From positions 1 to 64,000 of the forward strand of contig JAUMVJ010000006.1 of NCBI GenBank assembly GCA_030530215.1: 64,000 nucleotides of DNA, written 5' to 3'. Below, piece by piece: positions 247 to 9,784 of the stretch; within the stretch, counting starts at the first letter, position 1, and each line of letters starts with the position of its first letter. The translations under genes and the position numbers were made by a program. The notes under the pieces were generated by a model. The model searched no databases. It was not told where the DNA came from and saw only the letters and a list, made by a program, of their open reading frames with translations. The stretch is from Coriobacteriia bacterium. Lineage in GTDB: Bacteria > Actinomycetota > Coriobacteriia > Coriobacteriales > Eggerthellaceae.

Positions 247-576
247 CTAGCACGCGTCGGGGTTCTTCAGGGTTCGATCGAAGGCGCGAACCCACCAAAC
301 GGCCTTATCGAGCGAGCCATCCTTCCCTTGCCGGTGCTCCAAAAACATCTGGGTAACACGCCCGCCCAGACGCACATCGAACACCATGGTCCTTCGTCCA
401 TCATGCTCGGGGCAAAAACTCGTGCACGAAAGAACCTCATCGATATGGAACGCGCGGCCGTCCTTCCGCATGACGACAACCGGCTCCACCGAGCCGTCGC
501 GCCCAAAACGCGCGACAACATCGACGCGCTCGCGGTGCACGCGCTGCATCTCTCCATCTTTCGCTCGATAATCCAT
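247..576 (-). CDS. Small conserved protein of an SOS polymerase cassette
   Basis: 109 aa, no known function. The body has an alternating hydrophobic, probably beta-rich pattern: VDVVARFGRDGSVEPV, then a DGRAFHIDEVL motif, then MVFDVRLGG and a terminal WWVRAF. From memory this resembles a family of roughly 80-100 aa uncharacterised proteins (DG-[RK]-x-F-x-I-D-x-V-L type) found next to Y-family polymerases in gut Firmicutes and Actinobacteria; no search was possible. It is transcribed divergently from the polymerase gene, and the 14-bp LexA palindrome lies 12 bp upstream of its ATG, so both sides are probably repressed by LexA. No Shine-Dalgarno sequence precedes the ATG, and a TATATC-like element lies only a few bases upstream, so its mRNA may be leaderless. 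A longer plus-strand frame over the same bases (154-582) lacks a ribosome site and any family resemblance. Confidence 0.6.
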   Translation of the reverse strand: MDYRAKDGEMQRVHRERVDVVARFGRDGSVEPVVVMRKDGRAFHIDEVLSCTSFCPEHDGRRTMVFDVRLGGRVTQMFLEHRQGKDGSLDKAVWWVRAFDRTLKNPDAC

Positions 577-588
577 ATGTGATATATT

Positions 589-602
589 CGAACATATGTT
601 CG
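589..602. promoter_or_regulatory. LexA/SOS box, perfect palindrome
   Basis: CGAACATATGTTCG is a perfect 14-bp palindrome that fits the Gram-positive SOS box (CGAAC-N4-GTTCG). It lies between the divergent 109-aa gene and the Y-family polymerase gene. A plus-strand -10-like TATATT (583-588) abuts it, so bound LexA would block transcription in that direction, and its position also suits control of the minus-strand gene. Confidence 0.9.
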
Positions 603-621
603 TAAAAAGCTAGAGGAAATT

Positions 622-1929
622 ATGAGGTGGCAGGTGCACGATTCAAGCAGAGGGGAGAAACAGAAACATTATTTATGTATAGACCTTAAATCTTTTTATG
701 CGAGCGTCGAGTGCGCCGACCGTGGCCTTGACCCTTTCACTGAAAAGCTCGTGGTCGCCGACCCTGACCGAGGCCCGGGGACTATTTGCTTGGCGGCAAG
801 CCCGGCCATCAAGGCTGCAGGCGTTCCTAACCGCTGCCGCGTCTTCCAGATACCAAGCGACATCGAATACACCATGGCAACACCGCGCATGAGCCGCTAC
901 ATGGAAGTTGCCGCCAAAATCAATTCCATCTATATGAGACACGTGTGTCCCGAGGATATACACGTATATTCAATTGACGAATGCTTCCTGGACATAACAC
1001 CCTATCTTGGGCTTAGCAAAATGAGCGCCCACGATTTCGCCGCCCTACTCATCGATGAGGTACTAAAGGAGACGGGCATCACTGCAACCGCGGGTATCGG
1101 CAGCAACCTCTTCCTTGCCAAAATTGCCCTTGACCTACTTGCGAAGCACGAGAAAAGCGGCATTACCGAGCTGAACGAGCACTCATTCAAACAGAAAATA
1201 TGGTTCCATCAGCCCATCACCGACATATGGGGAATCGGCCCTGGTATCGCCCGGCGCTTAGGCCGCAAAGGGGTGCATGATCTGGCGGGAATCTGCGCGA
1301 CCGACCCTAAATGGATCATGCGGGAGTTTGGCAAAAACGGCGAATACCTAATCGACCATGCCTGGGGCCAGGAACCTTGCACCATCAAGGAAATTCGCAA
1401 CTGGCAGCCCTCCAGCAATTCCCTTTCAAGCGGGCAGGTCCTCATCAGAAATTACTCGGCCGAAGAAGCACGAACGGTTGTGCGCGAAATGGCATCATCA
1501 GCGGCGCTCGAACTCAGGAAGCTCGGGAAATCCTGCGGACAAGTGGCGCTTTGGGTGGGTTCCGGTTACATAAAAATGCCTGACGGAAGGAGGAGCGTCA
1601 TGCACGCAGGCGGAAGCATGAAACTCCACGAGCGAACCTGCTCCCCCGCCCTCATCACCAAAAGAATACTAGCGATTTACGACGATAAGGTGGATAAGCG
1701 AATGCCCATCAAGCGCATTTCCCTGTCGCTCGGCGCGCTCGGCTGCGCACGTTACGACCAAAAATCCCTTTTCGACGACGAAAACCAAGAGAAAGAGGCA
1801 TCCCTTGCCGATACCGCCATTGCCATACATGAGCGCTTCGGAAAGAACGCACTCCTTAAGGGCGGGAGCCTTAAGGAAGAAGCGACGATGCGCGAACGAA
1901 ACCTGCAAATCGGAGGCCATCGCGCCTAG
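622..1929 (+). CDS. Y-family DNA polymerase, UvrX/UmuC-like
   Basis: 435-aa translesion DNA polymerase. The first catalytic block is IDLKSFYASVEC (Asp near residue 21) and the second is YSIDECFLD (Asp-Glu near 119-120), so the palm carboxylates are present. GIGSNLFLAKIALD is the usual finger/palm block, IWGIGPGIARRL is the helix-hairpin-helix, and the little-finger domain follows. Near the C-terminus QKSLF fits a beta-clamp binding motif, and the protein ends RNLQIGGHRA as UvrX-type polymerases do. A Shine-Dalgarno-like AGAGGAA lies at 612-618, close to the ATG. The gene is 20 bp downstream of a perfect LexA box and is followed by a YolD-like gene, an arrangement typical of damage-inducible error-prone polymerases. 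It belongs to the UmuC/UvrX branch rather than classical DinB. Confidence 0.9.
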   Translation: MRWQVHDSSRGEKQKHYLCIDLKSFYASVECADRGLDPFTEKLVVADPDRGPGTICLAASPAIKAAGVPNRCRVFQIPSDIEYTMATPRMSRYMEVAAKINSIYMRHVCPEDIHVYSIDECFLDITPYLGLSKMSAHDFAALLIDEVLKETGITATAGIGSNLFLAKIALDLLAKHEKSGITELNEHSFKQKIWFHQPITDIWGIGPGIARRLGRKGVHDLAGICATDPKWIMREFGKNGEYLIDHAWGQEPCTIKEIRNWQPSSNSLSSGQVLIRNYSAEEARTVVREMASSAALELRKLGKSCGQVALWVGSGYIKMPDGRRSVMHAGGSMKLHERTCSPALITKRILAIYDDKVDKRMPIKRISLSLGALGCARYDQKSLFDDENQEKEASLADTAIAIHERFGKNALLKGGSLKEEATMRERNLQIGGHRA

Positions 1930-2037
1930 CATGCGTAAAGCCGAGACAAGGGAAACGAACGCCACCAGCTTGGCACACGAGCGCAAAGGCGCAGGCTTAG
2001 TCTTGCCAGGACCAACTAAACCAAGAGAGAAGGCACG

Positions 2038-2352
2038 GTGAGGGAAAGCGGACAACTTACAACAGATCGCGAACATGAGCGACACGTACCGTCAAACGAC
2101 GAACACAGCGAAGATCAAATAACGGATTTCGAGCGACTACCATACTTCGATTTCTCGGAGCTTCGATTCGAGGAGGCTGCGCGTCGGCAAGCGATCCTTG
2201 CCGACATAGAGCGACGCGTGGCGAAGGATGGCGTGCACTCCGCAGCGGCGAGTCCGCATCGTGCGCGACAGTTCATGCCCTTCGCCGCCCTCGACGGCTT
2301 CACCGAGCTCATCAAGAAAACCGAAGACGAGAGTATGGCTCGGGAGGACTAG
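2038..2352 (+). CDS. YolD-like small protein downstream of SOS polymerase
   Basis: 104 aa starting at a GTG, with AGAAGG just upstream. The N-terminal 60 residues are acidic and variable. The C-terminal part contains RARQFMPFAALDGFTELI, which matches the R-A-[KR]-x-F-M-P-F-x-A-L-x-G-[FY] signature of YolD-like proteins encoded next to UvrX/UmuC polymerases. Their role is not settled; an accessory function in translesion synthesis is assumed because they sit beside the polymerase. The gene starts 108 bp after the polymerase stop on the same strand and is probably cotranscribed under LexA control. Confidence 0.7.
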   Translation: MRESGQLTTDREHERHVPSNDEHSEDQITDFERLPYFDFSELRFEEAARRQAILADIERRVAKDGVHSAAASPHRARQFMPFAALDGFTELIKKTEDESMARED

Positions 2353-2406: not shown

Positions 2407-2434
2407 AAGACCGGCGAACAAGGACGCCGGTCTT
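2407..2434 (-). terminator. Intrinsic terminator after the CAU tRNA
   Basis: A 10-bp stem (AAGACCGGCG / CGCCGGTCTT) with an 8-nt loop. Read on the minus strand it is followed by TCTTTATT, directly downstream of the tRNA gene. The plus-strand side lacks a good T tract but may also help end the polymerase/YolD transcript. Confidence 0.8.
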
Positions 2435-6100: not shown

Positions 6101-6278
6101 GCGTCTTTTTGTTTCATCTTTGCTTTCTTTTGCCTTAGGCCTCTGCAAACAGCAGGTGCTTGCTACAATTTTCATCCCGAAAATCCGAGTAAGCCAGCAA
6201 ACGTAAAATCCTTTCGTTCGAACCAAAACGCTGGCTTTGTTCTCCCGTCCAACTCGACCAACCGAAGGAATCGATTCA

Positions 6279-8426
6279 ATGGCAAGCATTGATCATGACA
6301 CCGAACTGGAAGCCGATAAGGCCAGCTGCGAAGACACTATCTTCATCGAAGAGCAGGCGCACCTGAGCCAAACCTACGAGAAGCTGAAGGATATTGCCAA
6401 CGATGCCGCCCATTCCCTGGATGAACGACTGAAATCTGCACGAGGCGACAAGGTCAATATGCTCGATGAGCTGTTCGTCGACTTTGGCAACGGCGTGAAC
6501 CTTGAAACTTACGTCGAGTTCGAAGCCATGCACAAGATCATCGATGAATACAACCTGGCCAACGACATAGACGCCCAGAGGCTTGATACGGCAAACCTTC
6601 TTATGCGCAAACCCTATTTCGCCAAGGTGAGCCTGCAGCTGCGTCCCGGCGCACCCGCGCGCGACATCTATATCGGCACCGCGGGCATCACCGACGAGAA
6701 ACGACGCCACTTCATTGTCGATTGGCGCTCCCCCATCGCCGAGACTTATTACAACCAAGCCAACGGCAAAACCTCCTATACCGCAAACGGGCGAACAATC
6801 GAAGCCGAGCTTCTATGCCGCCGCCAGTTCGACATCGAGCGCGACAAGCTGAAGGCCTATTTCGATACCACCGTGGCCATCGAGGACCCGCTGCTATTGG
6901 CCTCGTTGGCGCGCGGACGCAACGACAAGCTCAGCGACATCACCGCGACCATCCAACGTGAGCAAAACACGGTCGTACGCCATGACGACGTTGATGTTCT
7001 TTTGGTCAACGGAATCGCCGGATCAGGCAAGACCAGCGTTCTTTTACAGCGCATAGCCTACCTGTTCTACCAGCAGCGCGAGAACTTAAGCCCACGCGAC
7101 GTCTACCTGATAACTCCCAACTCCGTCTTCCAGCGCTACATCGACAACGTGCTTCCCGACATGGGCGAGGAAAACCCGCAAACCCTTACCTGGGATGACC
7201 TTATGGCTACGCTCAAGCTCGACAATCGCGATCTTGGAAAGCAAGGAGGCGCAGAAGAGCTTCGCCTGATCGACGAGCTTCTACCCAGTCTTGTGCTAGA
7301 CGGCAGGGACTTTGCCGACCTTAAGGTTGACGACGAGGTGGTGCTTAGCGCGTCCACGGCACGCAACGCCTACCGGCAGTTCAAGTCCATCCCCGCTGGC
7401 CCGCATCATGCGGCCCTGACAGCAGACGAGCTTCATGAACGCCTGGCGCAGCGCATCAAGCGTCTTTCACGCAGCGAGGACACCTTTGATGCGATGATGG
7501 ACCTGGATCACGACGAAATGATGCGCATCTTCGGCATGCCCATCCAGCCAGCCAGCGAAACCGAGTTTCAGGATTACGCACTCACCTATCTAAAGGATCG
7601 CTATGCACCCATCGAAGAGGCGATCGAAAACGGTGGTTGGCTGCGCATCGACAGAATAGGTATGCGCATGCTCAAGAAGAAGGCCCTCAACAGCGCCGAA
7701 TGGCTCTACCTTAAGCTCGCACTTGCAGGAGGCAGCAAACGGAGCGCACGCTATATCATGGTGGATGAGGTGCAAGACTATTCCTGCGCTCAGCTAATGG
7801 TCTTGGCGCGCTACTTCAACAATGCACATTTCCTTTTGCTCGGCGACCCAAACCAAGCCATCAAAGACGGCACTGCAAGCTTCGACGAAATTCGTCAGAT
7901 CTTCAGCGCAGCGCGTGGCGAAGTTCATGAATGCCAGCTTATGACCAGCTACCGCTCAAGCCCCGAAATCACCAAACTCTTCACGGGGCTTATGCCTGCC
8001 GACGAACGCATCAAAACCTCCTCCATCCAACGCCCCGGATACGAGCCGAGCATCGAGGAATGCCTTGACACCGACGAGTATCAATCGGCCGTCCGAGCTG
8101 AAATCGAGCGCATGGACAAAGAGGTCGAGGGCCTGGCGGCTGTCATCGTTGCGGAAAAGAGCCGCGTGAAATGGATGGCAAAATGGCTCGACGACACCCC
8201 AGCGATCTTCCTCGACAAGCACGATGAGCTGCCCGAATCGGGCGTGCTGGTGATGGATGTTGCCCTGGCGAAAGGGTTGGAGTTCGAACAGGTGCTCGTA
8301 GCGGATGCGCAGCAGGAGGTCTACACAGGCGACGAGCTGTCGCGCTGCCGCCTCTACACCGCCCTAAGCCGCGCAACGCAGAAGGTAAGCGTCATCAGCC
8401 AAGGGCCGCTCACAAGCATGCTGTAG
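6279..8426 (+). CDS. HelD-like superfamily 1 helicase (RNA polymerase-associated)
   Basis: 715 aa. The N-terminal 240 residues include a charged helical stretch (residues about 15-55), which in HelD reaches into RNA polymerase channels, and the block FIVDWRSPIAETYYNQ. Walker A is NGIAGSGKTSVLLQRIAYLF near residue 244 and Walker B is YIMVDEVQDYSCAQL. Further UvrD-type motifs are LLGDPNQAIKDG, SYRSSPEI and the C-terminal LYTALSRATQKV. Gram-positive HelD frees stalled RNA polymerase using ATP; Escherichia coli helicase IV is a more distant relative. An SD GAAGGAA (6264-6270) precedes the ATG at 6279, so the in-frame ATG at 6237 is rejected. It stands between the tRNA terminator and sbcD. Confidence 0.85.
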   Translation: MASIDHDTELEADKASCEDTIFIEEQAHLSQTYEKLKDIANDAAHSLDERLKSARGDKVNMLDELFVDFGNGVNLETYVEFEAMHKIIDEYNLANDIDAQRLDTANLLMRKPYFAKVSLQLRPGAPARDIYIGTAGITDEKRRHFIVDWRSPIAETYYNQANGKTSYTANGRTIEAELLCRRQFDIERDKLKAYFDTTVAIEDPLLLASLARGRNDKLSDITATIQREQNTVVRHDDVDVLLVNGIAGSGKTSVLLQRIAYLFYQQRENLSPRDVYLITPNSVFQRYIDNVLPDMGEENPQTLTWDDLMATLKLDNRDLGKQGGAEELRLIDELLPSLVLDGRDFADLKVDDEVVLSASTARNAYRQFKSIPAGPHHAALTADELHERLAQRIKRLSRSEDTFDAMMDLDHDEMMRIFGMPIQPASETEFQDYALTYLKDRYAPIEEAIENGGWLRIDRIGMRMLKKKALNSAEWLYLKLALAGGSKRSARYIMVDEVQDYSCAQLMVLARYFNNAHFLLLGDPNQAIKDGTASFDEIRQIFSAARGEVHECQLMTSYRSSPEITKLFTGLMPADERIKTSSIQRPGYEPSIEECLDTDEYQSAVRAEIERMDKEVEGLAAVIVAEKSRVKWMAKWLDDTPAIFLDKHDELPESGVLVMDVALAKGLEFEQVLVADAQQEVYTGDELSRCRLYTALSRATQKVSVISQGPLTSML

Positions 8427-8593
8427 GCTCCCTTGCCCAATAGTTCACCGCCCGTCCATGCTATTAACCTCCGTTTAAACGCGGTCGCACCACACCAGCA
8501 AAACAGTTGAACGGAAAACGGCCCTGGTGTCTCACTCATCGCGAAAACACGCCACATATATACGAAATTCGATTGCTCCGAGAGGAATCGCGC

Positions 8594-9784
8594 ATGAAAT
8601 TCCTTCACCTATCTGATTTGCATATCGGCAAAATCGTCAACGGCTTCAACATGCTCGACGACCAGCGCTTTGCTCTTGAGGGAATACTGGACATCGCGAG
8701 CAACCGAAGGTTGAATGCCATCGTTGTCGCTGGCGATTTATACGACAAAGCGGCGCCAAGCGCCGAGGCGGTTCAGCTCGTCGACTGGTTCATCAGTGAG
8801 CTCGTAGCACGCAAAGTCAAGGTACTGGGCATCCCGGGCAACCACGATTCGGCCGAACGCGTGGCTTACGCTCAAAGCATTCTTGAAAAGCAGGAGGTTT
8901 ACTTCCCTCCCCTTTTCAACGGTCAAGTGCACAAAGTGGAACTCGAAGATGAGTTCGGACCGGTGAGCTTTTGGCTCATGCCCTTCCTTAAACCCGCACA
9001 GGTGCGCCCCTTCTTTCCCAACGAGGACATCCAAACCGACTACACGCGCGCACTCGAATGCGTGCTTTCAAGCTGCAAACTCGACCCGACTAAACGCAAT
9101 ATTCTTGTTGCCCACCAATTCGTCACCGCGCAGGGGCAGCAAACCGAACGCAGCGCATCCGAGCTAAATCTGGGTGGGCTCGATAACGTAGATGCCAGCG
9201 TTTTCAAAGCATTCGACTACGTTGCCTTGGGGCATACCCATCGGCCACAGCGCATTGGCCGCAACGAATGCCGCTACGCTGGCTCGCTCCTTAAGTATTC
9301 GATTTCGGAATCTAGGCAATCGAAGTCGGCCGTGCTTGTGGAACTCGGTCCAAAAGAGGCAAAGACGCCAGCGAACGAAAATAGCAGCTGCGTGAACTTC
9401 GAGCTCATCGAATACCCGATAAAACATGACCTGCGACAAATCAAAGGATGCCTGGCCGACCTGACCGACGAGTCGAAGCTGAATAAATCCCTGGATTACA
9501 TCCATGCCACGCTCACCGACGAGGTGCTGCCCCTTAATACGCAGGCGCGCTTGCGGACAATGTACCCCAATCTGATGTCGTTCAGTAAAGAGCAAGTGCC
9601 CTCCGAAAGCGCCAACAACAAGACATACGTTCAGGACGATGCGGCGACAATTAACCCCTCCGAGCTCTTCGCTAGTTTCTTTAAAGAACAAACAGGCAAG
9701 GAAATGAACGACGAACAAGCAAGCATCGCAGTAAAGTTCATGAACGAAAGCCAGCAAATAACTTCGACGGGCAAGGAGGCTTAA
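8594..9784 (+). CDS. sbcD: SbcD, nuclease subunit of SbcCD (Mre11-like)
   Basis: 396 aa. The metallophosphoesterase motifs are intact: HLSDLHIGK (D8, H10), GDLYD (47-51), GIPGNHDS, a histidine block HQFVTAQGQQ, and ALGHTHRPQ. The C-terminal part is the capping and SbcC-binding region. With SbcC it forms an ATP-dependent exo/endonuclease that opens hairpins and processes blocked DNA ends. An SD AGAGGAA (8581-8587) sits 6 nt before the ATG; the frame is open upstream to 8507 but without a ribosome site. Its stop is 5 nt before sbcC, so the two are translated together. Confidence 0.93.
   Translation: MKFLHLSDLHIGKIVNGFNMLDDQRFALEGILDIASNRRLNAIVVAGDLYDKAAPSAEAVQLVDWFISELVARKVKVLGIPGNHDSAERVAYAQSILEKQEVYFPPLFNGQVHKVELEDEFGPVSFWLMPFLKPAQVRPFFPNEDIQTDYTRALECVLSSCKLDPTKRNILVAHQFVTAQGQQTERSASELNLGGLDNVDASVFKAFDYVALGHTHRPQRIGRNECRYAGSLLKYSISESRQSKSAVLVELGPKEAKTPANENSSCVNFELIEYPIKHDLRQIKGCLADLTDESKLNKSLDYIHATLTDEVLPLNTQARLRTMYPNLMSFSKEQVPSESANNKTYVQDDAATINPSELFASFFKEQTGKEMNDEQASIAVKFMNESQQITSTGKEA

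Follow-up and report, generated by a model that had tools for sequence, protein, structure and literature searches.

The locus at the start of contig JAUMVJ010000006.1, from a Coriobacteriia gut bacterium of the Eggerthellaceae, raises the question of whether a Y-family DNA polymerase and the two small genes that flank it belong to one damage-inducible unit and, if so, what the small proteins would contribute to it. The stretch of DNA analysed (64,000 nucleotides; hereafter the window) belongs to a genome bin of 1.47 Mb that is 64% complete. The 109-aa gene and the polymerase gene are transcribed outward from an intergenic gap of 45 bp that holds CGAACATATGTTCG, and the 104-aa gene follows the polymerase (Table 1). 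An earlier note on this DNA had described a perfect palindromic SOS box in this gap and a UvrX-type polymerase with intact catalytic residues and a QKSLF motif; both descriptions were borne out, and the cassette is a real, conserved SOS-type unit. The hairpin past the 104-aa gene was scored on the − strand, and the terminator-like sites of the region are not above those of its shuffles; a tRNA-Met gene lies beyond the hairpin, 3′ of the 104-aa gene. A few kb from the cassette, at positions 6237–9784 of the window, there are genes for a UvrD-type helicase and an SbcD-type nuclease (Pfam). PADLOC returned nothing of use for the cassette.

Table 1. Features of the cassette, in window coordinates.
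Feature	Position	Strand	Basis or location
109-aa gene	247–576	−	ORF list
LexA-type (SOS) box CGAACATATGTTCG, perfect palindrome	589–602		Between both divergent start codons
UvrX-type Y-family DNA polymerase, 435 aa	622–1929	+	Pfam, PHROG, alignment
Catalytic D21 codon (IDLKSFYASVE)	682–684	+	Alignment to DNA polymerase IV structures
Catalytic D119-E120 codons (YSIDECFLD)	976–981	+	Alignment to DNA polymerase IV structures
QKSLF beta-clamp-type motif, residues 380–384; putative clamp binding	1759–1773	+	Sequence alignment
Polymerase C-terminal extension: RecA-NT-like stretch (~395–416) and conserved RERN..GGH tail	1804–1926	+	94 relatives
104-aa arm-only YolD-type gene, GTG start	2038–2352	+	ORF list, arm motif
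YolD arm core RARQFMPFAALDGF, residues 75–88 of the 104-aa protein	2260–2301	+	Motif comparison
10-bp GC-rich hairpin past the 104-aa gene, candidate terminator (weak)	2407–2434		Hairpin scan

The polymerase matches Pfam IMS (92.7 bits) and PHROG 1268 “DNA polymerase” (265 bits), and its closest solved structures are those of DNA polymerase IV. Among 94 aligned UvrX-type polymerases, D21 is unchanged in each of the 84 rows without a gap at that position, and D119 and E120 are each identical in 94 of 94; within QKSLF, whose counterpart in 7yll chain A is the YEQLSFLD stretch, the L is kept in 92 and the F in 89 of the 94 proteins, and the RERN..GGH tail is conserved as well. The protein therefore has the hallmarks of UvrX/YqjW, namely the catalytic D, D and E, a beta-clamp motif and a conserved C-terminal tail, and it is probably error-prone. 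The RecA-NT-like stretch was assigned by analogy with PMC6511836, and both its position and its conservation are consistent with this assignment. No DnaE2 exceeded the NF004225 cut-off in the 14 genomes that were searched (the window’s genome and the 13 genomes with the divergent layout described below, several of them incomplete bins); 13 of the 14 contain a long sub-threshold match to this model, which presumably represents DnaE1. A scan of viral contigs with the polymerase gave nothing of use.

The 104-aa protein contains the YolD arm motif RARQFMPFAALDGF followed by 16 residues to its end, which leaves no room for an SH3 barrel, and the Pfam YolD model (PF08863) matches neither this protein nor any other part of the genome bin. 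The label “YolD-like” that the gene had been given thus applies to the arm motif, and not to the SH3 barrel or to a Pfam YolD match, both of which are absent: judged by its sequence, the protein is an arm-only variant of YolD and not YolD proper.

The 109-aa protein is matched by no Pfam, NCBIfam or PHROG model, and five of its relatives gave nothing above sub-threshold noise when scanned permissively against Pfam and NCBIfam. Among 138 Eggerthellaceae genomes, relatives were detected in 66 at the BLAST level and in 80 at the profile level, the latter amounting to 114 places with the window counted. In 74 of these places a Y-family polymerase gene is no more than 0.8 kb from the family gene, so that the family accompanies Y-family polymerases, as had been proposed, and is found mostly beside rather than away from them. 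In the other 113 places the family gene is divergent from a polymerase gene (13), in tandem behind it (60 rows, including two in L151, namely a second copy 6.3 kb away and a deletion relic), in front of it (1), or without a polymerase (39, hereafter solo rows). The divergent layout involves UvrX-type polymerases and the tandem layout another polymerase type. With the window counted, 14 copies are divergent from a UvrX-type polymerase, as against the presence of such polymerases in 107 of the 138 genomes; most UvrX-type polymerases have no adjoining 109-aa gene, which indicates that the gene is dispensable for them. UvrX-type loci were represented by 80 of 93 further matches (8 partial or contig-end matches and 5 others were left out), and 94 of the resulting 95 rows entered the polymerase tree (L096 was too short for the length filter). 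Presence of the 109-aa gene changes about seven times over this tree, on which the window, L113 and L097 make up a starred set, all with a 109-aa gene and an arm-only gene, the join between the window and L097 being unsure because of long branches.

Several members of the family occur in other settings. An orphan subgroup has neither a box nor a polymerase nearby (L068, L091, L094, L111, L114, L118 and similar loci), and most of the genomes concerned also bear a tandem copy. Relatives in tandem after a DNA polymerase IV-type gene were found on Clostridia plasmids and a viral contig (L032:2252–3731, L033:1942–4494, L191:1451–2981). In L033 and L034, a gene for an ImmA/IrrE metallopeptidase is next to the relative, and L034 has no polymerase nearby. 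An apparent fusion of a polymerase N-terminal part with the family domain (L151:9364–10002) was rejected as such; its frame looks like the remnant of a tandem pair after an internal deletion. A phage collection contained no match to the 109-aa or 104-aa proteins.

The perfect form of the LexA-type box, CGAACNNNNGTTCG, occurs at one site in the window, between the two divergent genes, and at two sites in the 1.47-Mb bin, the second of which is within a coding frame; a reversed control pattern occurs at 18. With up to one mismatch allowed, a box is present in the 300 bp that precede the family gene in all 13 divergent rows (7 perfect), in 12 of the 39 solo rows (27 are without) and in none of the 60 tandem rows, 36 of which have the box upstream of the polymerase gene instead. 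In total, 100 boxes with up to one mismatch were counted over the 665 kb examined, which corresponds to an expectation of ~0.05 per 300 bp, real ones included. A lexA gene was not found in the window’s bin (64% complete). Among three other genomes of the same genus, two contain a lexA over the cut-off, and in each of these two, three one-mismatch boxes with ~28 bp spacing lie beside lexA (L185:1409–1479, L186:2141–2210). Based on the conserved box, we infer that transcription of both genes would be damage-induced and LexA-dependent.

Profile searches place the 109-aa protein, which the earlier note had described as having no known function, in the ImuB-C superfamily as a distant relative. An hhalign comparison of the family with 25 DUF6504 sequences gave a score of 32.1 (82%), whereas the highest score among 200 column shuffles was 19.2 and the reversed control reached 8.8; with 45 DUF6504 sequences the score was 32.6 (84%), and 100 shuffles gave 18.3 or less. 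In a search of 1195 ORFs with the family HMM, DUF6504 ORFs come out on top and fill 18 of the first 20 places, and a DUF6504 HMM used in reverse assigns family ORFs 23 of the top 25 places among 7984 ORFs, related ORFs being counted separately in both rankings. One of the two other ORFs in the first 20, in L058, represents a DUF6504 locus that is truncated and had not been listed. The Deinococcus deserti ImuB-C is matched by the family HMM with an E-value of 2.2e-4; the best family ORF in the reverse search reached an E-value of only 0.18. DUF6504 can be equated with ImuB-C because the D. deserti DUF6504 gene, which is situated in the order lexA–Y-family polymerase–DUF6504–dnaE, is the imuB-C gene described in PMC8072749. 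Residue W94 is invariant in 26 of 26 family sequences, and a conserved C-terminal tryptophan is given as a feature of ImuB-C (PMC3765255). The Pfam DUF6504 model (PF20114) has no match in the window’s genome, and the family therefore is, by profile comparison, a divergent branch of the ImuB-C (DUF6504) superfamily that falls outside Pfam DUF6504 as curated. Two samples of genomes from the phylum gave PF20114 matches in 35 of 80 and in 102 of 296, and none of the genomes with a match belongs to the Eggerthellaceae. A perfect CGAACNNNNGTTCG is also present in 21 of 24 Actinomycetota DUF6504 loci (L035–L058), often just upstream of the gene, which suggests that standalone ImuB-C is widely under LexA control. 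A scan of viral contigs for DUF6504 produced one partial match (L195) that is not readable as this domain, and a corresponding scan for the Thermaerobacter DUF6504 produced nothing of use.

The AlphaFold2 model of the 109-aa protein, built from 7 sequences, is all-beta with 7 predicted strands (pLDDT 79.5, pTM 0.68). Foldseek against the PDB gave no match to the model at E ≤ 0.001, and the best hit of a PDB sequence search with A1 had an E-value of 1.5. PMC12926913 describes ImuB-C as all-beta and lacking a close PDB match, and the 109-aa model may correspond to the beta-barrel expected of ImuB-C. The best BFVD match is an uncharacterised phage protein (E-value 1.5e-3). VIA-align returned Z-scores of up to 6.1 for affimers and monellins, which were taken as background, and the DNA-binding protein Pur-alpha (Z 5.0 over 48 residues) is within this background.

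The reading that we favour, and that we consider fairly likely, is that the cassette encodes a LexA-repressed PolY–RecA-type mutasome with a standalone ImuB-C-like accessory subunit, of a gram-positive Pol V type (UvrX/YqjW–YolD–RecA). LexA bound to the central box would repress both divergent transcripts until RecA filaments, formed upon DNA damage, inactivate it. The right-hand transcript would then supply the polymerase and the arm-only YolD-type subunit, and the left-hand transcript the ImuB-C-like protein. The arm protein would insert into the polymerase, the polymerase tail would hold RecA, and QKSLF would hold the sliding clamp; the ImuB-C-like protein may dock as an accessory subunit or adaptor, at the polymerase–RecA interface or on DNA, and so license lesion bypass. 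The regulatory step is proposed because the box is conserved, and the later steps, including complex formation and a role in mutagenesis, are predicted from homology and from the models in PMC12926913.

It has been proposed that ImuB-C binds lesions and guides polymerases to them (PMC3765255), and the 109-aa protein might accordingly be a damage sensor rather than a polymerase subunit. The family adjoins two different polymerase types, and genome G095, which also has a divergent unit, carries solo copies that lie just behind their own perfect LexA-type box with no polymerase within 3 kb (L137:3330, L148:3316); these arrangements suggest that an ImuB-C-like protein can act in trans. However, the 109-aa protein shows no DNA-binding motif or fold match, the VIA-align rows being within background, and the models in PMC12926913 treat ImuB-C as a domain for protein–protein contacts. 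We regard a sensor as an unlikely alternative to the accessory subunit.

The arm-only gene invites another explanation, in which the small subunit is split: the 109-aa beta protein would provide the barrel in trans, such that it and the arm protein together make up one YolD/UmuD-type subunit. An arm gene is present at each of the 12 divergent UvrX-type loci whose downstream sequence is complete (9 arm-only, 3 with the SH3 part), and no arm gene is found beside any of the 60 tandem rows. UvrX-type loci with an adjoining 109-aa gene (14 plus the window) comprise 10 arm-only loci, 4 with full YolD and 1 at a contig end; those without it (80) comprise 27 arm-only loci, 50 with full YolD and 3 in which no such gene was found. 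The arm-only form is thus more frequent next to the 109-aa gene (10 of 14 vs 27 of 77; Fisher p 0.017, kinship ignored), which together with the all-beta model would fit a split subunit. However, a kinship-aware test yielded 5 independent pairs, too few to reach 0.05, with a sign-test median p of 1, so that the association is not supported by independent pairs. Moreover, four loci bear both a full YolD and a 109-aa gene, 27 arm-only loci have no adjoining 109-aa gene, and profile similarity to YolD is absent (hhalign score 9.9, 0.12%), for which reason the 109-aa protein was rejected as a YolD SH3 barrel; its role as a replacement for the missing barrel was rejected because independent pairs give it no support. 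We consider a split subunit improbable. A bystander function, for example that of a regulator of the SOS response that shares the box and takes no part in bypass, is very improbable given the proximity to polymerases in two layouts at 74 places, the further cases on Clostridia plasmids and a viral contig, and homology to a polymerase-associated domain, even though the gene was repeatedly gained or lost on the polymerase tree and the 40 of 114 places without a polymerase within 0.8 kb, together with the boxless solo rows, suggest that part of the family may act otherwise.

The favoured mutasome with an ImuB-C-like subunit resembles the putative YqjW-YqjX-RecA and UvrX-YolD-RecA mutasomes (PMC6511836, PMC12926913) in its catalytically intact polymerase of the UvrX type, which carries a clamp motif and a conserved tail, its downstream YolD-type arm and its LexA-type box; it differs from them in that the third protein is arm-only and that a divergent ImuB-C-like gene shares the same box. 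Standalone ImuB-C (DUF6504, PF20114), as in lexA-imuB-C-polY of Geobacter and imuY-imuB-C-dnaE2 of Deinococcus, is similarly a small protein, all-beta as predicted for the 109-aa protein, tied to a Y-family polymerase and an SOS switch, whereas in the window the sequence is beyond the Pfam model, no DnaE2 is recognised, the polymerase is active, the gene is divergent rather than operonic, and a YolD arm is present. The unit had also been proposed to be comparable to, but different from, ImuA-ImuB-DnaE2. The first part gains content from the distant relationship to ImuB-C, through which the two share a module; the second agrees with the catalytically intact Y-family member and the lack of a recognised DnaE2 in any of the 14 genomes. 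As in UmuD-type (Pol V) systems, a LexA-controlled Y-family polymerase would be served by a small partner that inserts an arm, but here the arm protein is YolD-type and without a barrel.

The individual parts have precedents. A combination of standalone ImuB-C, UmuC and YolD was mentioned in 2013 (PMC3765255) and an arm-only YolD small subunit was described in 2026 (PMC12926913), in a work that also presents 11 module types and a Coriobacteriia-specific polymerase group; PMC6511836 pairs ImuB-C with the YqjH of Clostridia, and YolD with UvrX/YqjW. The layout and the combination are new, and the cassette seems to put known parts together in a new way and not to represent a system of a new kind. 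The available portions of PMC3765255, PMC6511836 and PMC12926913, supplements aside, describe no box shared by divergent genes and no arm-only YolD alongside ImuB-C. A literature search for Eggerthella, LexA and the SOS response gave no paper on such a unit by title, and a search for DUF6504 gave no paper.

The role of standalone ImuB-C is presented as an open question of the mutasome field (PMC6511836, PMC8072749). None of the Pfam, NCBIfam and PHROG models searched picks up the 109-aa family, which widens the range of ImuB-C to the Eggerthellaceae and Clostridia. Its position beside active polymerases, with no recognised DnaE2, offers a small three-gene, one-box system in which the role of ImuB-C could be examined apart from DnaE2. 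We tentatively suggest, with less confidence than we attach to the accessory-subunit reading as such, an inducible mutasome of four parts that had not been described as a single complex, namely an active UvrX-type polymerase, an arm-only YolD, a separately transcribed ImuB-C-like beta subunit and RecA, operating without DnaE2. If this is true, ImuB-C would serve translesion synthesis as a general and mobile subunit, able to pair with at least two polymerase types.
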